Positions 55,266 to 64,000 of a stretch of DNA of 64,000 nt are shown in pieces. Position 1 is the first letter of the stretch; the number at the start of each line of letters is the position of its first letter. The notes under the pieces were generated by a model. It was not told the DNA's origin, did not search any database, and saw only the letters and a program-made list of their open reading frames with translations. The DNA lies in NCBI GenBank assembly GCA_017405965.1, contig JAFQZK010000035.1:62001-126000 (forward strand), given 5' to 3'. A program made the position numbers and the translations under genes. This stretch comes from Muribaculaceae bacterium. Its GTDB lineage: Bacteria > Bacteroidota > Bacteroidia > Bacteroidales > Muribaculaceae.

Positions 55266-57173
55266 GTGAAAATACTTTCTATTAACGACCTCAACAACTT
55301 GAGGAAGCGTGCGCAACAGGCATTAGCGCTGCGCGAGGAAAGTTCTGACACCACGTCAGAGCAGTGTTGTGGTCTTGCTTCAGGAGCCGACCACTTGCAG
55401 CTCTTGTGCTGCGGCGGTACCGGATGTAAGGCATCCAACAGCCACAAAATTGTTGACAACCTCAAGGCTGCCATTGAGGAGAATGGCATTGCCGACAAGG
55501 TCGAGGTTATCACCACCGGCTGTTTCGGTTTCTGTGAGAAGGGCCCGATCGTGAAAGTTATCCCCGACAACACCTTCTACACCCAGGTGAAGCCCGAGGA
55601 TGCTGCCGAAATCGTGAAGGAGCACATCATTGGCGGTCGTCGCGTGGAGCGTCTGCTCTATGTTGACCCCAAGACCAACAAGACGGTAAGCGACAGCAAG
55701 CACATGGACTTCTACCGTAAGCAGATGCGTATCGCATTGCGCAACTGCGGTCTGATCGACCCCGAGAACATCGAGGAGTATATCGCTCGTGACGGTTACC
55801 AGGGTATTGCTAACGCTTTGCTGAACCAGACCCCCGAAGAGGTGATTGAGATCATCAAGGCCTCGGGTCTGCGTGGCCGTGGCGGCGCTGGCTTCCCCAC
55901 CGGTATGAAGTGGGGCTTTGCCCGTGGCTATGAAGCCGACGAGAAGTATGTGGTCTGCAATGCCGACGAGGGCGACCCCGGTGCATTCATGGACCGCTCC
56001 ATCATGGAGGGTGACCCCAACTCGGTGATTGAGGCAATGACCGTCTGCGGTTACTGCATCAACTCCCACAAGGGTCTGATCTACATCCGTGCCGAGTATC
56101 CCCTGGCTGTTAACCGCCTGAAGATCGCTATCCAGCAGGCTCGTGAGTACGGTTTGCTGGGCAAGAAGATCCTGGGTACCGATTTTGACTTCGATATCGA
56201 GATCCGCTACGGTGCCGGTGCATTCGTTTGCGGTGAGGAGACCGCCCTTATCCACTCGATGGAGGGTAAGCGTGGTGAGCCCACCCTGAAGCCGCCGTTC
56301 CCCGCCGAGGCCGGTTACAACATGAAGCCCACCAACGTGAACAACGTCGAGACCCTCGCCAATGTGCCCATCATCCTGACCAAGGGCGCTGACTGGTTCG
56401 CCTCGATCGGTACCGAGAAGAGCAAGGGTACCAAGGTGTTCGCTCTGGCTGGTAAGATCAATAACGTGGGCCTTATCGAGGTTCCCATGGGTACCACCCT
56501 GCGCGAGATCATCTACGACATCGGTGGTGGCGTGAAGAACGGTAAGGAGTTCAAGGCTGTGCAGACTGGTGGCCCCTCGGGCGGCTGCTTGACGCAGAAG
56601 CACCTCGACACTCCCATCGACTATGAGCACCTCGCTGCTTCGGGCTCGATGATGGGCTCTGGCGGTATGATCGTCATGGACGAGGACGACTGTATGGTCA
56701 GCGTGGCCAAGTTCTACCTCGAGTTCACCTGCGATGAGAGCTGCGGTAAGTGCACCCCGTGCCGCATCGGCAACAAGCGCATGCTGGAGATCCTCACCCG
56801 CATCACCGAGGGCAAGGGCACCATGGAAGACCTTGACCGTCTGAAAGAGCTGGGCGAGATTATCAAGGATACCGCACTGTGCGGTCTGGGTCAGACCTCT
56901 CCCAATCCTGTGTTATCGACTATCAACAACTTCTGGGACGAATATGTGGAGCACGTTAAACAGCACACTTGCCGTGCTAAGCAGTGCAAGGCCCTCGTGA
57001 CCTACAGCATTGAAGCCTCCAAGTGTAAGGGTTGCGGTGCTTGCGCCCGCAAGTGCCCCGCCAACGCCATTATGGGCGACATTCGTAAGCCTCACATTAT
57101 TAACCCCTTCGAGTGCATCCGCTGCGGTATGTGTAAGTCTAACTGCCGCTTCGACGCCATCTCGGTTTATTAA
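55266..57173 (+). CDS. hydB: Bifurcating [FeFe] hydrogenase, NADH-binding flavoprotein subunit HydB
   Basis: A 635-residue NuoF-like subunit; it begins with GTG. Residues 44-105 form a thioredoxin-like [2Fe-2S] domain with Cys49, Cys54, Cys86 and Cys90 (LCCGGTGC and TTGCFGFC). From 201 the FMN/NADH domain starts with GLRGRGGAGFPTG; CNADEGDPGA follows at 231. A [4Fe-4S] site is in DESCGKCTPCRIG near 490. The C-terminus (about 580-632) adds two [4Fe-4S] motifs, CKGCGACARKC and CIRCGMCKSNC. Together with HydA and HydC it oxidises NADH and reduced ferredoxin to make H2, or the reverse, by electron bifurcation. The order here is hydB-hydA-hydC. Confidence 0.93.
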   Translation: MKILSINDLNNLRKRAQQALALREESSDTTSEQCCGLASGADHLQLLCCGGTGCKASNSHKIVDNLKAAIEENGIADKVEVITTGCFGFCEKGPIVKVIPDNTFYTQVKPEDAAEIVKEHIIGGRRVERLLYVDPKTNKTVSDSKHMDFYRKQMRIALRNCGLIDPENIEEYIARDGYQGIANALLNQTPEEVIEIIKASGLRGRGGAGFPTGMKWGFARGYEADEKYVVCNADEGDPGAFMDRSIMEGDPNSVIEAMTVCGYCINSHKGLIYIRAEYPLAVNRLKIAIQQAREYGLLGKKILGTDFDFDIEIRYGAGAFVCGEETALIHSMEGKRGEPTLKPPFPAEAGYNMKPTNVNNVETLANVPIILTKGADWFASIGTEKSKGTKVFALAGKINNVGLIEVPMGTTLREIIYDIGGGVKNGKEFKAVQTGGPSGGCLTQKHLDTPIDYEHLAASGSMMGSGGMIVMDEDDCMVSVAKFYLEFTCDESCGKCTPCRIGNKRMLEILTRITEGKGTMEDLDRLKELGEIIKDTALCGLGQTSPNPVLSTINNFWDEYVEHVKQHTCRAKQCKALVTYSIEASKCKGCGACARKCPANAIMGDIRKPHIINPFECIRCGMCKSNCRFDAISVY

Positions 57174-57187
57174 ATTTCGATAGCATC

Positions 57188-58957
57188 ATGGAAGAAAAGA
57201 ATATGATCACTCTGACGATTGATAAACACGAGGTTACTGTTCCTGCAGGGACCATGCTGCTCGATGCCGCCAAGACCGTCGGCATCAGCATTCCCACCCT
57301 GTGCCACATCGACCTGGAGGGTACTTGTGTACAGAACATGCCTGCCTCGTGCCGCATTTGTGTTGTGGAGATCGAGGGCCGTCGCAACCTGGCTCCCGCC
57401 TGTGCAACCCGCGTGACTCCGGGTATGGTGGTTCACACCAACAGCGCCCGCGTGATCCGCGCCCGCAAGACCGTTGCCGAGCTCATGCTCAGCGACCATC
57501 CCAACGATTGCTTGACCTGCCCCAAGTGCAGTGACTGCGAGCTGCAGCGCCTGGTTATGCGCTTCAACATCCGTCAAATGCCGTACAACGGTGGTGAGCA
57601 GAGCGAGCGCAAGCAGGAGCTCACTCCCGCTATCTCGCGCAACATGGAGAAGTGCGTTTATTGCCGCCGTTGCGAGAGCGTCTGCAACAACGTGCAGTCG
57701 GTAGGCGTTTTGAGCGCTATCCGCCGTGGTTTCAACACCACCATCGCTCCCACGTTTGACAAGATGTTCACCGACACCAACTGTACCTATTGCGGTCAGT
57801 GTGTCGCTGTATGTCCCACCGGCGCCCTTACCGAGCACGATTACACCAATCAGCTCATGGACGACCTCACCAACCCCGATAAGGTGGTTATCGCTCAGCC
57901 CGCTCCCGCCGTGCGTTTCGCTCTGGGCGAGGAATTCGGCATGCCCGCTGGTACCATCGTTACCGGCAAGATGGCCACCGCATTGCGCGACCTGGGCTTT
58001 GACTACGCATTCGACACCGACTTCGCTGCCGACCTCACCATCATGGAGGAGGGCACCGAGATCCTGCAACGCCTCAACAAGTTCCTTGCTGGCGATAAGG
58101 ATGTGAAGTTGCCGATCATGACTTCGTGCTGCCCCGCTTGGGTTAACTTCTATGAGCACGAGTTCCCCGATCTGCTCGACTATCCCTCGACCGCCAAGTC
58201 GCCCGCCCAGATGTTCGGTGCTGTCGCCAAGACCTACTGGGCCGAGAAGATGGGTATCCCCCGCGAGAAGCTCGTGGTTGTTTCAATCATGCCTTGCTTG
58301 GCCAAGAAGTATGAGGCCGGCCGTGATGAGTTCAAGGTGAATGGCAATCCCGACGTGGATTACAGCATCTCAACCCGTGAGCTTGGTCGCCTGATCAAGC
58401 GTGCCAACATCGACTTCGCTAACCTGCCCGAGAGTGACTTCGACTCGCCCCTCGGTGAATCGACAGGTGCTGGTGCCATCTTCGGTATCACGGGTGGTGT
58501 GATGGAGGCTGCATTGCGTACCGTCTATGAGGTGCACACCGGCAAGACCCTGCCACACCTCGAGTTCAACGACGTGCGCGGCTTTGAGGGCATCAAGGAA
58601 GCTACCATCGACCTCAACGGCTTTGAGCTGAAGGTCTGCGTGGCTCACACCCTGAGCAACGCCCGCAAGGTGATGAACGCCCTGCGTGCCGGCAAGCTCA
58701 ACTACCACGTGGTTGAGGTGATGGCATGTCCCGGTGGTTGCATCGGCGGTGCCGGTCAGCCCTACCACCACGGCAACATCGAGATTCTCAAGGCACGTGC
58801 CGCTGCCGTTTATCGTGAAGACGAGGGCAAGGCATTGCGTAAGAGCCACCAGAACCCCGACATCCAGAAGCTGTACAAGGAATTCCTGGGTGAACCCTGT
58901 GGCGAGAAATCGCATCACCTGCTTCACACGCACTACTTTGATAAGAGCATTCATTAA
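57188..58957 (+). CDS. hydA: Bifurcating [FeFe] hydrogenase catalytic subunit HydA
   Basis: A 589-residue iron-only hydrogenase. N-terminal [2Fe-2S] ferredoxin (Cys39, Cys55, Cys58, Cys72), a His-Cys3 [4Fe-4S] site (His104, Cys108, Cys111, Cys117), two [4Fe-4S] motifs (Cys156-166 CVYCRRC and Cys199-209 CTYCGQC), then the H-cluster domain: TSCCPAW (Cys314/Cys315), MPCLAKKYE (Cys370) and MACPGGCIGGAGQP (Cys514, Cys518). The proton-path Cys and all H-cluster ligands are present. It lies 14 bases after hydB and 23 bases before hydC. A group A3-type assignment is inferred from the company of HydB and HydC. Confidence 0.95.
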   Translation: MEEKNMITLTIDKHEVTVPAGTMLLDAAKTVGISIPTLCHIDLEGTCVQNMPASCRICVVEIEGRRNLAPACATRVTPGMVVHTNSARVIRARKTVAELMLSDHPNDCLTCPKCSDCELQRLVMRFNIRQMPYNGGEQSERKQELTPAISRNMEKCVYCRRCESVCNNVQSVGVLSAIRRGFNTTIAPTFDKMFTDTNCTYCGQCVAVCPTGALTEHDYTNQLMDDLTNPDKVVIAQPAPAVRFALGEEFGMPAGTIVTGKMATALRDLGFDYAFDTDFAADLTIMEEGTEILQRLNKFLAGDKDVKLPIMTSCCPAWVNFYEHEFPDLLDYPSTAKSPAQMFGAVAKTYWAEKMGIPREKLVVVSIMPCLAKKYEAGRDEFKVNGNPDVDYSISTRELGRLIKRANIDFANLPESDFDSPLGESTGAGAIFGITGGVMEAALRTVYEVHTGKTLPHLEFNDVRGFEGIKEATIDLNGFELKVCVAHTLSNARKVMNALRAGKLNYHVVEVMACPGGCIGGAGQPYHHGNIEILKARAAAVYREDEGKALRKSHQNPDIQKLYKEFLGEPCGEKSHHLLHTHYFDKSIH

Positions 58958-58980: not shown

Positions 58981-59475
58981 ATGAAGAAGAAAGAAGAAAT
59001 CAAACTGGCGTGTACCGTAGTTCAACAGGTTGAGGAAATCTGTGACAAGCACGGAAATAAGCCCGGTGAATTGATTAACGTGTTGCACGAGTGCCAGGCA
59101 CTGCACGGCTATCTCCCCGAGGAGATGCAGCGCATCATTGCCCGCAAGTTGGGCGTGCCCGCATCCAAGGTTTACGGCGTGGTGACGTTCTACTCGTTCT
59201 TCACCATGACCCCCAAGGGCAAGCACCCGATTTCGGTCTGCCTGGGTACCGCCTGCTACGTGCGTGGTTCCGAGCGCCTGCTCGAGGAAATCAAGCGCAT
59301 CCTCAACATTGAGGTGGGTGAGACTACTCCCGATGGCAAGTTCTCGCTCGACTGCCTGCGTTGCGTGGGTGCCTGCGGTCTTGCTCCCGTTGTCATGATT
59401 GGTGAGCATGTTTATGGCCGTCTCGACGTCAAGGACATCCGTCAGATTCTCGAGACCACCGCAGCACAGGATTAA
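58981..59475 (+). CDS. hydC: Bifurcating [FeFe] hydrogenase, NuoE-like subunit HydC
   Basis: A 164-residue thioredoxin-like [2Fe-2S] protein of the NuoE/24-kDa type. Ligands are Cys87, Cys92, Cys128 and Cys132 in CLGTACYVRG and CLRCVGACGLAP. The helical N-terminus (LINVLHECQALHGYLPEEMQ) is also as in NuoE. It forms the third subunit of the HydABC complex. A terminator follows 25 bases past the stop. Confidence 0.94.
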   Translation: MKKKEEIKLACTVVQQVEEICDKHGNKPGELINVLHECQALHGYLPEEMQRIIARKLGVPASKVYGVVTFYSFFTMTPKGKHPISVCLGTACYVRGSERLLEEIKRILNIEVGETTPDGKFSLDCLRCVGACGLAPVVMIGEHVYGRLDVKDIRQILETTAAQD

Positions 59476-59670: not shown

Positions 59671-61338
59671 CTATTTCTTCTTCTTGATGATGTCCAGCAG
59701 GTAGAGGATGGGAGCGTTGTCATCAAAGTTGTAACGCTTGTATTCCTCATAGCTTGGCATCAGGTCGGGCGTGAACTGTTTGGCACGCGGGTCGTCGTCG
59801 GGGAAGCAAATCTGAATCAATGAGCAGATATCTCCAGTGAGACCGGTGCGAGGCAGATAGAACGACTGATTCGCCATGAAGGTGTTGGGCGCTTGACTGC
59901 TTGTTACTCCCGCAATTGTGGCCCCCATTTTCCACAGATGGTGAGAAAAGTGGAAGGCGGCACTGAACGTCAAGGGGTCAGTGACTACATATACGTGCTC
60001 GGGACTGTAGACGGGTTGGCCGTTTTGTGCGCGCAGTTTGTCCTTGATGCTGCACATGCTGCCATCGATGAAATTTTCACGCTTTTTTTCGATACTGATT
60101 TCCTGGTAGTTTACCTCTGAAAGGTCCAGATAGTCCCCATACTCAAGTTTGTATTCATTCGTTGCATTTATCTGTTCAAGAGAGGCTTTACTCATTGTCT
60201 TGGGAGTAAGCAGATAAAACCCTTTATCCTCTTGATAACACTCTTTCAAGTATCTGTCGCCATATAATTGATAAAGCAGTGGATAAACGATATTTGTGTT
60301 GCCTCCACCATTGCCACGCAGGTCGATGATCAGGTTCTTGCTGCTGTTTTGCTTCATCAACTGCAGCATCTTCTCGAATTCTTCACTCAACGATGGTATC
60401 ATCGCAATGGCAAAATCTTCATTCTCGGGAACAGGCATGCCTGCAATACTGTAGATGCCTTGAAGCATACCTGAACAGTCGTAACCATGTTCCTTGTCGT
60501 ATTCCAGAAGATCTCTTGCGATCATGTGTGCCACATGGAAGTACATCGTGTTGTTACCTTCGTCGGCAAAGCCATATTGGAGTAAACCGAGGAAATCATA
60601 GCTGAATTGTTTGGCAGGGAAGCTGCTTGGTCTTACCGATTGGGCCTGAAATTGCAATACCTGATTGAACGGGACAACGGGCAACGTAACCTCGGCTTTC
60701 TTCCCTTTAGGGGTCTTCAGTTGATAGGTGATAGTGGCATCGCCCAGGGTGGGAATCACTTTACGCAGGGCTTTGGGTTGTATGGCGTAATGTGCCAGAT
60801 TCATCATGCGTCCTATCTCGTTCTCGGCAATGAAGTGTTTTGCCATGTCGTTGGCCAAGTCGTTGACCGCCACATTCTCGATGGCGACAAGACGGCTGCC
60901 CACCAGATCCTTGTACTCGTCGGGCAGGGCCTTGACAATAATTCCGTCGTTGATGGCCTCAAGGATGATGAGCGTTGCCGGATCAGTATACTGAATTGGG
61001 AAGTGGCCAGGAACATAAGGTCCATCGGGCATGGCGACGGTGTGCCCGTCCTTCAACGGAGCCAGGAATTCATTGATGCGATAAGCAAACTCCCTGACGT
61101 CAGTGACCTTGTCTTTGAGAAGCGCGTTGCGGGCATCACTTGCAGCCTTGCGGAAGTAGGGTTTGCCTCCATAACCACTGTAGGGGTCTGGATGCCGCTC
61201 TTCAAGGAGTTTGACAAAATATCTGAAGTCGGCGACGATGGAGTCGGTGGGCACTTGCGCCCACGTCTTGTTGCCAGCAAGCAACAATGTTAACAGGATG
61301 AGCAACGTTGCTCTGGTTAGGAAATGATTCTTTTTCAT
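59671..61338 (-). CDS. Secreted S41-family peptidase
   Basis: A 555-residue protein, signal peptide about 1-26 (ending AGNKTWAQ). A helical N-terminal domain is followed by a short PDZ-like part (IIVKALPDEYKDLVGSRLVAIENV) and the S41 core with KNLIIDLRGNGGGNTN near 345 and TFSAAFHFSHHLWKMGATIAG, in which the Ser of TFSAA would be the nucleophile. It differs from the Ctp at 30417 and looks like tricorn-core/peptidase family S41 proteins in Bacteroidetes. The target is unknown. ATG 61338 (MKKNHFLTR) is preferred over the TTG at 61347, since the signal peptide starts there. Confidence 0.82.
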   Translation of the reverse strand: MKKNHFLTRATLLILLTLLLAGNKTWAQVPTDSIVADFRYFVKLLEERHPDPYSGYGGKPYFRKAASDARNALLKDKVTDVREFAYRINEFLAPLKDGHTVAMPDGPYVPGHFPIQYTDPATLIILEAINDGIIVKALPDEYKDLVGSRLVAIENVAVNDLANDMAKHFIAENEIGRMMNLAHYAIQPKALRKVIPTLGDATITYQLKTPKGKKAEVTLPVVPFNQVLQFQAQSVRPSSFPAKQFSYDFLGLLQYGFADEGNNTMYFHVAHMIARDLLEYDKEHGYDCSGMLQGIYSIAGMPVPENEDFAIAMIPSLSEEFEKMLQLMKQNSSKNLIIDLRGNGGGNTNIVYPLLYQLYGDRYLKECYQEDKGFYLLTPKTMSKASLEQINATNEYKLEYGDYLDLSEVNYQEISIEKKRENFIDGSMCSIKDKLRAQNGQPVYSPEHVYVVTDPLTFSAAFHFSHHLWKMGATIAGVTSSQAPNTFMANQSFYLPRTGLTGDICSLIQICFPDDDPRAKQFTPDLMPSYEEYKRYNFDDNAPILYLLDIIKKKK

Positions 61339-61748
61339 GTGATACAATATTTGATGTTATTGCCTTCTTGTTTGAGTTCAGTTTAAGTTCTAAGGTGTAC
61401 ACAGGTCTTCATTGCAAAATTAATCAGAATATTTCATCTATTATCGGTTGTTGAGGGGTAAATGTAGATGAATACCCGCTTTTTCCCTGAAAGTGTCAAA
61501 TAATTGGACACTTTCAGGAAGAATGATTTCTCCATTCAGTCTATCGGGAAGACTTATTGTCTCAAGGTCGCACCTGGGATACTGAACGACATCGATGCTA
61601 CACGCATTCTCATTTTTAATTTCACAAATTCAATTATTCTTAATTCCTTTATTGTGGGATTGGAAGAAAAACTGTAATTTTGTAAGTGATATTGGATAGA
61701 TATCCACATCAGTCAAAAATCCTTAAATTATTAACCGATTAATTGTCA
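61339..61748. other. Intergenic region upstream of the second hydrogenase, with hairpin
   Basis: Contains a perfect 12-bp inverted repeat (61486-61497 CCTGAAAGTGTC with 61507-61518). On the minus strand an open frame at about 61440-61630 (C-terminus reading LPDRLNGEIILPESVQLF) has no start codon and no recognised family; it might be a gene remnant. The last 100 bases hold the hydrogenase promoter. Confidence 0.4.
61651..61682 (+). promoter_or_regulatory. Promoter of the fused hydrogenase gene
   Basis: ATTG (61651-61654), 20 bases, TAATTTTG (61675-61682). The -7 box is identical to that of the hydBAC operon and lies 67 bases before the ATG at 61749. Confidence 0.7.
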
Positions 61749-63554
61749 ATGGATTCTCAACACAACGAAGCGCCAAACAATGCGAATGGCGAAATGCAAT
61801 CAGACAATGCCTCCGAGGCATACGGCCTGATTGGTAACCAACATATACAGGTCCTGTGCTGCTGTGGTTCGTCATGCTATGAATCGGGCAGCTTGAAAAT
61901 CATTGACAATTTTATCCGTGTTATCGCAGCCTATGGTTTAGGCAGCCGTGTAGATGTCGTGGCAACAGGTTGCTTTGGCTTCTGTGCAAAGGGGCCCATC
62001 GTAAGGATCATGCCCGACAACACGACCTACGTCCAGGTTCATCCCGAGGATGTGGAGGAAATCGTCAAGACACACATCATAGAAGGACGTCTGCTCGAAC
62101 GCCTGCAATATGTGGACTTTACGGCCCATCAGTTGATGGATGACTCCAAGCACTGGAGTTCCTATCCCAAGCAACTCTCGATGGATGCCATGTTGCATGA
62201 CTACATCTACGAGATTGGCGGCAAGAGGTTCTTGTCGGTGATGTCCTACAAGATTGATGCCGACAAGTGCAAGGGTTGTGGCGCCTGCAAGCGTGGATGC
62301 TCCAGCCATGCCATTGTGGGTGACCTGCGCCATCCCCATGTGGTCAATCCCTATAAATGCACATGCTGCGGTCATTGCACGACCAAGTGCAAGTTCGACG
62401 CCATCCACGGCCCCGTGGGTGCACTCAGCGAGCGCAACTATGTCGAGGATCTGCTGGTTGATGTCGCTGACCCCGACAAGATAGTCGTGGCTCAAACAGC
62501 ACCGGCGGTACGGTATGCGCTGGGCGAGGAATTCGGCATGCCCCCCGGCAGCATCGTGACAGGCAAGATGATCACGGCCCTGCGCAAGGTGGGTGTGGAC
62601 TATGTGTTTGATACCGACTTCGGTGCCGACATCACCATTATGGAGGAGGCTGCCGAAATTGTTGATCGTCTGCGCAAATTCATCGCAGGGGACAAGACGG
62701 TGCGTATTCCTATCACTACCTCGTGCTGCCCGGCATGGGTCAACTTCTTTGAGAACGACTATCCCGACCTGAGGGAGTATCCCTCGACCTGCAAGTCACC
62801 CGCTCAGATGCTGGGAGCAGTGCTCAAGACCTTCTGGGCTCAGCGCATGGGTATCCCTCGCGATAAACTGGTTGTGGTCTCGATAATGCCATGCCTGTCC
62901 AAGAAATATGAATGTGCACGCGACGAGTTCATCACCGACGGCAACCCCGATGTGGACTACTCGGTCACTACTATCGAGCTGGCCGAACTGATTAAGCGCA
63001 TGAACATAGACTTCGACTCCTTGCTGGACGGCGAGTTCGATTCTCCGCTGGGTGACTCCAGTGGTGCCGGAGCCATCTTCGGTACTACAGGCGGTGTCAT
63101 GGAGGCCGTGTTGCGAACGGTGTATGAGGAATTCACCGGACAGGAACTGGCCTATGTCGAGTTTGAACAGGTGCGAGGCCTGGACGGTATCCATGAGGCT
63201 GTCATCGACCTCAACGGCTTTGAATTGAAGGTGTGCGTGGTCAATACGTTGGCCAACGCCCGCATCGTTATGGACAAGCTGCGTGCAGGTGAAATGGATT
63301 ATCATGTCATCGAGGTGATGGCATGTCCCGGTGGCTGCATCGGCGGAACGGGCCAACCTTACCACCATGGTGATATCGAGGTCATCAAAGCCCGCCAGCG
63401 CGCCATCTACAGCGAGGATGTGGGCAAGCGGTTGCGCAAGAGCCATGAGAATCCTGTCATTCAGCGTCTTTATCGCGAGTTCCTCGGCGAACCTCTTCAT
63501 GGCAAGGCCCACGAAATTCTCCACACCAAGTACCGCGACAAGTCCATCCTTTGA
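61749..63554 (+). CDS. [FeFe] hydrogenase with HydB-type N-terminal and ferredoxin domains fused to a HydA catalytic domain
   Basis: A 601-residue chimera. Residues 33-120 match the thioredoxin-like [2Fe-2S] domain of HydB (Cys38, Cys43, Cys75, Cys79; ATGCFGFCAKGPIVRIMPDN). Residues 165-220 match the 2x[4Fe-4S] C-terminus of HydB (CKGCGACKRGC and CTCCGHCTTKC). From 245 on it is a complete H-cluster domain: TTSCCPAW (Cys326/327), MPCLSKKYE (Cys382) and MACPGGCIGGTGQP (Cys526, Cys530). The NADH/FMN domain and HydA's own [2Fe-2S] and His-Cys3 clusters are missing. All H-cluster ligands are intact, so catalytic activity is likely; the electron partner (ferredoxin or an unknown protein) is unknown. 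ATG 61749 is preferred over an upstream TTG. Confidence 0.9.
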   Translation: MDSQHNEAPNNANGEMQSDNASEAYGLIGNQHIQVLCCCGSSCYESGSLKIIDNFIRVIAAYGLGSRVDVVATGCFGFCAKGPIVRIMPDNTTYVQVHPEDVEEIVKTHIIEGRLLERLQYVDFTAHQLMDDSKHWSSYPKQLSMDAMLHDYIYEIGGKRFLSVMSYKIDADKCKGCGACKRGCSSHAIVGDLRHPHVVNPYKCTCCGHCTTKCKFDAIHGPVGALSERNYVEDLLVDVADPDKIVVAQTAPAVRYALGEEFGMPPGSIVTGKMITALRKVGVDYVFDTDFGADITIMEEAAEIVDRLRKFIAGDKTVRIPITTSCCPAWVNFFENDYPDLREYPSTCKSPAQMLGAVLKTFWAQRMGIPRDKLVVVSIMPCLSKKYECARDEFITDGNPDVDYSVTTIELAELIKRMNIDFDSLLDGEFDSPLGDSSGAGAIFGTTGGVMEAVLRTVYEEFTGQELAYVEFEQVRGLDGIHEAVIDLNGFELKVCVVNTLANARIVMDKLRAGEMDYHVIEVMACPGGCIGGTGQPYHHGDIEVIKARQRAIYSEDVGKRLRKSHENPVIQRLYREFLGEPLHGKAHEILHTKYRDKSIL

Positions 63555-63700: not shown

Positions 63701-64000
63701 TCAAGGCATGGACACCTTGCTCAGGATTCCTTTTAGATGGGCGATGGTGATGCCGTAGTTGGTCATCGGTGTGCCTTGCCGGCGGCACTGATCCACGCGT
63801 GAGAGCATGAACTTGCGGTTAAACATGCAGCCGCCGCAATGAATCACGAGGTCATAACTTGTTACATCTTCAGGGAAATCTTTCCCGGCCACAATGTCTA
63901 CGGTCAGCCCTTGTCCCACGCGCTGTCGCAGCATGCGGGGAATCTTTTCGCGGCCGATGTCCTCGGCCAGCGGGGCATGAGTGCAGGCTTCGGCAATGAG
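63701..64000 (-). CDS. hydF: [FeFe] hydrogenase H-cluster maturation GTPase HydF, C-terminal part
   Basis: The last 99 residues are inside the window; the rest (GTPase and dimerisation domains) lies past the right edge. It reads EACTHAPLAEDIGREKIPRM, then LVIHCGGCMFNRKFML and TPMTNYGITIAHLKGIL, the C-terminal cluster-binding domain of HydF. The [4Fe-4S] ligands CTH and HCGGC are present. HydF is the scaffold that carries the 2Fe precursor of the H-cluster to HydA. It is convergent with the fused hydrogenase gene. HydE and HydG are not in this window. Confidence 0.9.
   Translation of the reverse strand, partial: LIAEACTHAPLAEDIGREKIPRMLRQRVGQGLTVDIVAGKDFPEDVTSYDLVIHCGGCMFNRKFMLSRVDQCRRQGTPMTNYGITIAHLKGILSKVSMP

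Follow-up and report, generated by a model that had tools for sequence, protein, structure and literature searches.

The window analysed here is a stretch of 64,000 nucleotides from a Muribaculaceae genome (contig JAFQZK010000035.1), and close to its end it carries the genes of a trimeric [FeFe] hydrogenase followed by a further hydrogenase gene, here called hydX, whose product combines pieces of two of its neighbours. The genes and signals concerned are the following:

55266..57173, plus strand: hydB, source of both iron-sulfur ends of HydX (N-terminal part 55335-55727, C-terminal part about 56979-57161)
57188..58957, plus strand: hydA, encoding the catalytic subunit of the trimeric hydrogenase (group A3-type); from 57815 on, its core is paralogous to hydX
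58981..59475, plus strand: hydC, NuoE/HoxE-like [2Fe-2S] subunit (domain matches)
59671..61347, minus strand: S41 peptidase-family open reading frame between hydC and hydX (PF03572, 36.2 bits, cut-off 24)
61651-61654, plus strand: weak -33-like ATTG upstream of hydX
61675..61682, plus strand: promoter -7-like box TAATTTTG, 66 nt before the hydX ATG
61749..63554, plus strand: hydX, chimeric [FeFe] hydrogenase (open frame, genome and genus matches)
63701..64000, minus strand: hydF (maturase), 3' part only; it extends to 64903 beyond the window and is followed by hydG

The hydX gene is a single intact frame of 601 amino acids from its ATG, with no internal stop, and an alternative in-frame TTG at 61743 would extend the product to 603 residues. 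The start is probably the ATG at 61749, as the earlier note had it, because CAATGGA surrounds it in each of the ten sequences compared (the window and nine relatives). Residue numbers are nevertheless counted here from the TTG, and those of the structural model from the ATG (two fewer). Pfam and NCBIfam recognise thioredoxin-like [2Fe-2S], Fer4, Fe_hyd_lg_C and small-subunit (SSU) domains in HydX, the Pfam match to the first of these lying slightly below its cut-off (23.3 against 24.8 bits; 28.5 for the same domain in HydB). The layout of the protein, all on the plus strand, is as follows:

61842..62177, residues 34-145: HydB-type N-terminal thioredoxin-like [2Fe-2S] domain (alignment, Pfam/NCBIfam), predicted ligands C40, C45, C77 and C81
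62178..62249, residues 146-169: strongly conserved linker (alignment, dN/dS)
62250..62408, residues 170-222: HydB-type C-terminal 2x[4Fe-4S] ferredoxin (Fd) domain (alignment, tree), with CxxCxxCxxxC at 176-186 and 206-216, the equivalent of clusters B3/B4
62427..63362, residues 229-540: HydA-derived H-cluster domain (Pfam/NCBIfam, alignment, tree), with H-cluster ligands C329, C384, C528 and C532 and proton path E302, E305, R309, C328 and S348
63378..63542, residues 546-600: Fe hydrogenase small-subunit domain (Pfam)

Within the linker, no HydB counterpart was found by alignment for the 15 residues 146-160, and residues 161-169 align to the end of the HydB Zn-hinge motif, without its cysteine. 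Most of the linker is of low confidence in the structural model, built without cofactors, where pLDDT falls below 50 at model residues 122-142 and 149-164.

Each part of HydX can be traced to a gene lying just upstream. Residues 17-145 align with HydB 24-154, and residues 161-221 with HydB 572-632, i.e. its C-terminal 2x[4Fe-4S] domain, which bears out the earlier proposal that both parts are copies of the two ends of HydB, the HydB-part trees presented below adding moderate support only; the GCFGFC(x)KGPIV and CKGCGAC motifs cited for it are indeed present in HydX. From about residue 224, HydX tracks HydA from its residue 210 (PTGAL) to the C-terminus, and the parts join cleanly, the Fd domain and its lead-in running up to 'CKFDAI' and being followed by 'GPVGALSE', which corresponds to 'CPTGALTE' in HydA. 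In a search of its own genome, HydX matches the HydA core at 69% identity (E 3e-189), the HydB N-terminal part at 53% (E 2e-38) and the HydB C-terminal part at 51% (E 2e-19), and beyond these and itself there is one weak ferredoxin-type match (E 7e-7). Alignment, identity and trees thus agree that the H-cluster core is a paralogue of the neighbouring HydA, as had been suspected.

The FMN/NADH, SLBB and NADH_4Fe-4S domains and the Zn-hinge cysteines of HydB were not found in HydX by Pfam or alignment: there is no match to Complex1_51K, none to SLBB at E 0.001 (HydB matches the latter at 24.7 bits, itself below the cut-off of 27), and no cysteine between C81 and C176 in an alignment of 52 sequences, the region of the Zn ligands included. 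The first 209 residues of HydA ([2Fe-2S], NuoG-type cluster region and its own two [4Fe-4S]) were not found in HydX either, Fer2_4, NADH-G_4Fe-4S_3 and Fer4_Nqo3 being matched in HydA only. The flavin/NADH domain and the usual HydA N-terminal clusters are therefore both gone, in agreement with the first reading of this DNA. A joining of the window's hydB and hydA by sequencing error was also considered and rejected, both genes being present and intact upstream of hydX.

The origin of the fusion was addressed by phylogeny. In an IQ-TREE analysis of 73 thinned cores (27 of 54 HydX, 21 of 53 HydA of the genus and 25 of 26 others), HydX forms one clade (100/99) and groups with the HydA of the genus in a larger one (100/100), its closest neighbours being three HydA of the genus (99/90). 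With all 133 cores, FastTree recovers the HydX clade at 0.998. Bootstrapping of the thinned cores (200 trees) unites the genus HydA on a single branch in 0% of cases, but forcing them into one clade costs only 0.32 log-likelihood and is not rejected (AU p 0.49). The nesting of HydX within genus HydA displayed by the free tree was consequently dropped as a claim, and because of the same AU value we claim only that the HydX core derives from the HydA of the genus or from the direct ancestor of that HydA. As for the other parts, the FastTree of the Fd part groups HydX with 28 genus HydB at 0.953 and leaves three genus HydB outside (the set included one unrelated open reading frame, L090 2704-4098, which is no HydX), that of the N-terminal part, mostly of low support, puts HydX amid the HydB of the genus, a HydB of another family (L115) being interposed, and the joined HydB parts give 0.795. 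The HydB-derived parts thus point to the HydB of the genus, with weaker support than the core. Taken together with a sample of the family in which one of 30 genera, that of HydX itself, has any HydX match at E 1e-60 (313 matchless genomes being included), this parentage indicates that the fusion is young, at the genus level.

Within the genus, HydX is present in 57 of 101 genomes (hand count) and falls into two clades, the first in 32 genomes with 81-100% identity to the window copy, the second in 25 genomes with 62-71% identity, two of these 25 being cut at contig ends. HydA is also seen in 52 of the 57, the five others being 83-91% complete; in another 19 of the 101 genomes only HydA is matched, and 25 have neither at E 1e-90, many genomes being incomplete. 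No internal stop occurs among the HydX matches listed from these genomes. In 52 aligned full-length HydX, the predicted cluster cysteines of the thioredoxin-like domain, those of the Fd domain (176, 179, 182, 186 and 206, 209, 212, 216), the four H-cluster ligands and the proton donor C328 are all invariant, as are C39, C350, C391 and C498. Median dN/dS is 0.028-0.051 in the thioredoxin-like, linker, Fd and H-cluster parts of both clades, with dS near saturation; the N-terminal tail gives 0.36. For these medians 60 pairs were drawn at random in each clade (28 and 23 sequences), and those whose dS was undefined or lay outside the range 0 to 2.5 were discarded, which left 23-54 for each region. 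The genus is known mainly from ruminants, titles of records naming roe deer and yak rumen, goat reticulum, sheep and red deer; record names with 'RUG' we take to designate rumen genomes.

To what extent does this architecture occur elsewhere? Among the matches listed from 392 non-self genomes of the order (to about 445 bits), none spans the thioredoxin-like to the H-cluster domain; among 394 genomes of the phylum, the only match that begins ahead of residue 123 and also extends into the H-cluster domain is the window genome's own HydX; and HydX residues 3-252 used as query gave no match at E 1e-35 in 394 genomes of the class. The family, order, phylum and class samples overlap, the best three candidates per genome were scored (six for the search with residues 3-252), and Clostridia were sampled in part only. 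The survey of domain architectures in other Bacteroidales that the earlier note had called for thus yielded no thioredoxin-Fd-H combination outside the genus in the sampled genomes. Titles, abstract openings and passages of the literature, exclusive of the classic accounts of such architectures (Meyer 2007 and Calusinska 2010), likewise yielded no [FeFe] hydrogenase of this composition. As far as this search goes the architecture is unnamed, in line with the earlier remark that it matched no named subgroup; that remark passed over a close precedent, CbA5H. This precedent, and the fact that an Fd-type module joined to an H-domain is already known as a kind, limit the novelty of HydX.

The surroundings of hydX were compared across relatives' contigs (80 of 164 confirmed stretches kept, in 78 loci), with scan patterns taken from HydX itself, so that distant forms could be missed. 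The commonest order is hydB-hydA-hydC-hydX, followed by convergent hydF-hydG. Upstream of hydX and on the same strand, hydC is found in 41 of 51 loci, within 400 bp in 31 and at 414-4928 bp in ten. Ten loci lack it: five of these (L049, L061, L067, L080, L084) begin within 650 bp of hydX, in L073 a hydC reading frame between hydA and hydX was not recognised, and in L068, L070, L074 and L075 hydBAC is absent from the 6-8 kb upstream, L068 and L070 retaining hydF-hydG downstream. By script count, hydF lies strictly downstream on the opposite strand in 34 of 51 loci, a figure that excludes L038, L039, L042, L046 and L058, where it is on the minus strand in the locus and not strictly after hydX. 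The S41 peptidase-family frame between hydC and hydX recurs only in L036 among the 51. In the window genome, HydF scores 539 bits with TIGR03918 (cut-off 326) and HydG 843 bits with TIGR03955 (cut-off 312). A different reading frame, in L132, encodes 661 residues with an H-domain, HisKA and HATPase_c beside HydC-HydB-HydA; it is 27% identical to HydX and is no HydX.

The -7 promoter consensus of Bacteroidota is TAnnTTTG, and this box occurs in 25 of 26 clade-1 hydX start regions (3.1 expected by shuffling) and in 16 of 22 of clade 2 (2.3 expected), in one case, L076, after the start. The -33 half is found in five of 26 and two of 22, respectively (0.26 and 0.22 expected). Each scan took in the 170 nt ahead of the start of the reading frame and the 30 nt beyond it, with a single-base shuffle as control. 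The -7-like box is clear, while the -33 half is not convincing.

HydX is a group A [FeFe] hydrogenase by TIGR02512 (462.8 bits, cut-off 405.95), and the group A motifs TSCCPxW, MPCxxKK and ExMxCPGGCxxGxGQP are all intact, as TSCCPAW, MPCLSKK and EVMACPGGCIGGTGQP, with their cysteines invariant in the 52 sequences. The five proton-path residues of CpI (E279, E282, R286, C299 and S319, as given in a passage of PMC6226526) all have invariant counterparts in HydX, those listed above, in a mapping made by eye against a short stretch of CpI. With NF040763, the NADH-dependent A6 model, HydX reaches 576 bits, below the cut-off of 765 that HydA passes (880 bits). Its core branches with A3-type HydA, but HydX lacks the domains that characterise A3 enzymes, i.e. 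the N-terminal [2Fe-2S], the His-ligated [4Fe-4S] and HydA's own 2x[4Fe-4S], as well as FMN/NADH domain and Zn hinge, a separate HydB being encoded in the genome.

What could such a protein do? Passages of PMC8880783 assign clusters B3 and B4 to the HydB C-terminal domain, the proposed ferredoxin site, and B5 to the N-terminal domain, predicted to be thioredoxin-like, which in a NiFe relative stabilises the HydC C-terminal domain; others view B5 as a dead end (as told in part of PMC11406978). In T. maritima HydABC, according to passages of PMC9499530, ferredoxin-driven H2 production is prevented without NADH oxidation, and the cause proposed there is that the ferredoxin site and the H-cluster are kept apart in space, in a mechanism that its authors call highly speculative. 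HydX holds B5-, B3/B4- and H-cluster-type domains with nothing between them and a complete proton path, from which we infer a ferredoxin-only H2 producer: HydX is probably a single-chain, non-bifurcating, ferredoxin-dependent [FeFe] hydrogenase, mainly H2-evolving, with cluster content, donor, direction and absence of coupling all being predictions. A copy of hydB-hydA in the genus would have lost the FMN/NADH/SLBB/Zn middle of HydB and the N-terminal clusters of HydA to give hydX. Ferredoxin reduced by PFOR would dock at the 2x[4Fe-4S] domain (the B3/B4 arm of HydABC), possibly aided by the thioredoxin-like [2Fe-2S] domain, electrons would pass from the distal to the proximal [4Fe-4S] and on to the H-cluster, and protons would come in via the standard group A path. 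The B3/B4 arm would thereby sit where HydA's own two clusters sat, short-circuiting the bifurcation gate, so that H2 might be made without NADH.

The genome fits this proposal in several respects. It is 96% complete in 40 contigs, encodes PFOR and HydE, and has two FeFe H-domains only (HydA and HydX). No RnfC exceeds the cut-off in it, and none is found at 1e-30 in the 101 genus genomes, Bacteroides ihuae serving as positive control. The presence of PFOR and absence of RnfC favour ferredoxin disposal; the need for such a sink is not universal in the genus, since 19 of 101 genomes are HydA-only and 25 have neither protein, yet RnfC was detected in none. The weakest link of the ferredoxin reading is the donor, as the conserved thioredoxin-like domain and linker, superfluous in a plain ferredoxin hydrogenase, suggest a specific partner, which could be other than bulk ferredoxin.

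Could that partner be the neighbouring complex? HydX might be an alternative catalytic subunit that docks to HydBC or HydC via its thioredoxin-like domain, in a variant complex fed at least partly by NADH. The frequent linkage of hydX to hydBAC (hydC upstream in most loci), the HydA match in nearly all HydX genomes, and the strong constraint on a domain whose HydB counterpart, in the NiFe relative, has a stabilising effect on HydC (PMC8880783) speak for it, and feeding through a HydC-like partner, as first suggested, is possible. The variant complex is nevertheless unlikely, as HydX has neither the pre-core part of HydA, i.e. the A1, A2, A3-type relay towards B2 and FMN (passages of PMC9499530), nor an FMN or SLBB part; hydX also has its own promoter-like box, and in four loci the 6-8 kb ahead of it contain no hydBAC. 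It is unlikely, too, that a dedicated [2Fe-2S] protein or other carrier acts as donor or acceptor at the thioredoxin-like domain of a single-chain HydX, possibly in H2 uptake. FeFe hydrogenases are reversible in principle, and the domain has a carrier-type fold with invariant predicted ligands; on the other hand, no carrier gene was recognised adjoining hydX, where most neighbours are unnamed, and the PFOR/RnfC pattern favours ferredoxin disposal instead.

A role as H2 sensor or regulatory hydrogenase is very unlikely. Hydrogenases taken as sensory are often encoded beside a bifurcating one (PMC3561251, in part), as hydX is, but no Pfam match to a PAS, kinase or other signalling domain was found in HydX, in contrast to the kinase-bearing hydrogenase of L132, nor any extra C-terminal four-cysteine motif, the last cysteine being C532 of the H-cluster set; the core lies on the HydA branch, and all proton-path residues checked are present, where sensory enzymes differ (passages of PMC11376134). 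Among the functions offered by the earlier note, ferredoxin-only thus fits best and regulatory poorly. Finally, the chance that HydX is an assembly artefact, as the earlier note had cautioned, or a pseudogene or non-functional fusion is close to nil: the window genome is fragmented and named relatives are nearly all metagenome-assembled, but the gene recurs in more than half of the genus genomes, in two clades, with no stop among the matches listed, in copies that by their titles stem from several projects, and with dN/dS of about 0.04.

Beyond the ferredoxin-dependent hydrogenase itself, we regard as evenly poised the idea that HydX is nature's uncoupled bifurcating mutant, the B5 and B3/B4 arm of HydB set on an H-domain, with which the organism can switch between NADH-coupled and ferredoxin-only H2. 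HydX would represent a likely NADH-independent route to H2 in a genus often recorded from ruminants, and rumen H2 feeds methane production (PMC6776011, in part).

Several known systems share part of this design. Sensory HydS (M2e and M2f; T. maritima, T. mathranii) often lie near HydABC genes, as hydX does (passages of PMC3561251), but carry an extra C-terminal cluster motif or PAS (PMC6984386, in part), neither of which HydX has, and their proton path is altered (PMC11376134, in part), whereas that of HydX is complete. HydA2 of the hydrogen-dependent CO2 reductase (7qv7) resembles HydX in its short Fd domain and H-domain, but it is one of the subunits that make up a CO2 reductase complex, and the thioredoxin-like domain is absent from the match. 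The M2-type ferredoxin hydrogenases (Desulfovibrio HydAB, 1hfe; Sm-HydA and M. elsdenii HydA, described in passages of PMC6984386) have the same 2x[4Fe-4S] and H-domain, and the HydX model can be superposed on the Fd and H parts of the Desulfovibrio enzyme, but M2-type enzymes lack the thioredoxin-like domain and their core is less similar (43-45% identity for Desulfovibrio).

CbA5H of Clostridium beijerinckii (PDB 8zqd, 9f46, 9f47, 9rkm) is built as SLBB-Fd-H, with Zn at H199, C205, C113 and C210 (PMC13397568, in part). Its chain residues 26-267 match HydB at about 384-633 (E 2e-40), and HydB has, just ahead of its Fd domain, an H-x5-C-x4-C with the spacing of H199, C205 and C210; CbA5H therefore also carries a HydB-type piece, with the Fd domain immediately before the H-domain as in HydX. 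In contrast to HydX, it retains SLBB and the Zn site, its HydB-type match starting only at the SLBB part, whereas HydX retains the thioredoxin-like N-domain and has lost SLBB and Zn. The pieces retained by the two enzymes differ, and the HydX core is 69% identical to its own HydA against 45% for CbA5H, so that we read them as probably independent fusions, CbA5H standing outside the trees. Side by side, the two show that there are two or more distinct arrangements in which a HydB-type piece precedes an H-domain.

The nearest relative of every HydX domain is HydABC (HydDB group A3; T. maritima 7p5h, A. woodii 7q4v, T. kivui 8a6t), from which HydX differs in being one chain, devoid of FMN/NADH, SLBB, NADH_4Fe-4S, Zn hinge and HydA N-terminal clusters. 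How HydABC blocks ferredoxin-only H2 production is an unsettled question on which HydX bears, as it joins B3/B4 to the H-cluster in a genome that also encodes the parent complex, close by. Assaying both enzymes with the same ferredoxin would be a direct test of the B3/B4 separation idea and, should our reading be true, a matched pair, one gated and the other short-circuited, would test whether separating B3/B4 from the H-cluster enforces bifurcation, the arm being mobile in HydABC and covalently set at the H-domain in HydX.

In a sample of the family, a match to group A-type [FeFe] hydrogenase at E 1e-60 was found in only one of 30 genera, that of the window organism. Given this narrow distribution, either this genus may have acquired hydBAC and the maturase genes as an entire set from elsewhere, or the other genera may have lost them. 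As regards the route of ferredoxin, RnfC was detected in none of the 101 genomes of the genus at E 1e-30, while the Bacteroides control (Bacteroides ihuae) was positive. Some of these 101 genomes carry neither HydA nor HydX, the chimeric [FeFe] hydrogenase (window 61749-63554, plus strand), and these are RnfC-negative too at the same threshold.

The interval between hydC and hydX harbors long, unrelated ORFs in the window (59671-61347) and in six loci from other genomes (L036, L039, L042, L064, L069 and L082), and looks as if it were a landing place for ORFs. The ORF encodes 558 aa in the window, and 633-1190 aa across L039, L042, L064, L069 and L082; the ORFs of the window and L036 are encoded by the minus strand, those of the remaining five loci by the plus strand.

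In L036, which comes from a close relative whose HydX is 98% identical to that of the window, hydB and hydA form a single open frame of 1226 aa (L036:1684-5364), with a HydB end reading CRFGLLKFDSIMEEK in place of DAISVY followed by a stop. The joined frame, which may be genuine or a product of misassembly, illustrates how easily hydB and hydA can merge into one frame.

Genes related to butyrate metabolism were also observed nearby. About 4 kb past hydG, L006:7219-9242 (C31, downstream of the window) carries a butyrate kinase, which scores 503 bits with TIGR02707 (cut-off 289). With it lies a gene resembling phosphate butyryltransferase, whose score of 278 bits is below the cut-off of 399. Another ORF, L068:3732-4793, was judged butyrate kinase-like by eye, and is close to the displaced hydX of that locus.

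The H-domain of HydX contains two cysteines beyond the known ligand set, C350 (window 62790-62792) and C391 (62913-62915; numbering from TTG 61743), the latter seven residues past the MPC ligand of the H-cluster. Both are invariant in an alignment of 52 HydX, and the neighbouring HydA has Ala at both positions (PSTAKSP and KKYEAGRDEF). HydA1 of A. woodii and HydA2 of HDCR likewise have Cys at the position of C350.

Other hydrogenase variants were observed in distant Bacteroidota genomes. Adjoining HydC-HydB-HydA, a hydrogenase-like ORF (L132:6639-8624) combines H-domain, HisKA and HATPase_c domains, the composition of a sensor-kinase hydrogenase. In another genome, a HydB of 1042 aa (L133:1348-4476) ends in two C-terminal domains, one a 4Fe-4S domain of the dihydropyrimidine-dehydrogenase type and the other a pyridine nucleotide-disulphide oxidoreductase domain. 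In this it resembles the sub-type I BfuB of Hydrogenedentota, as described in PMC11406978.
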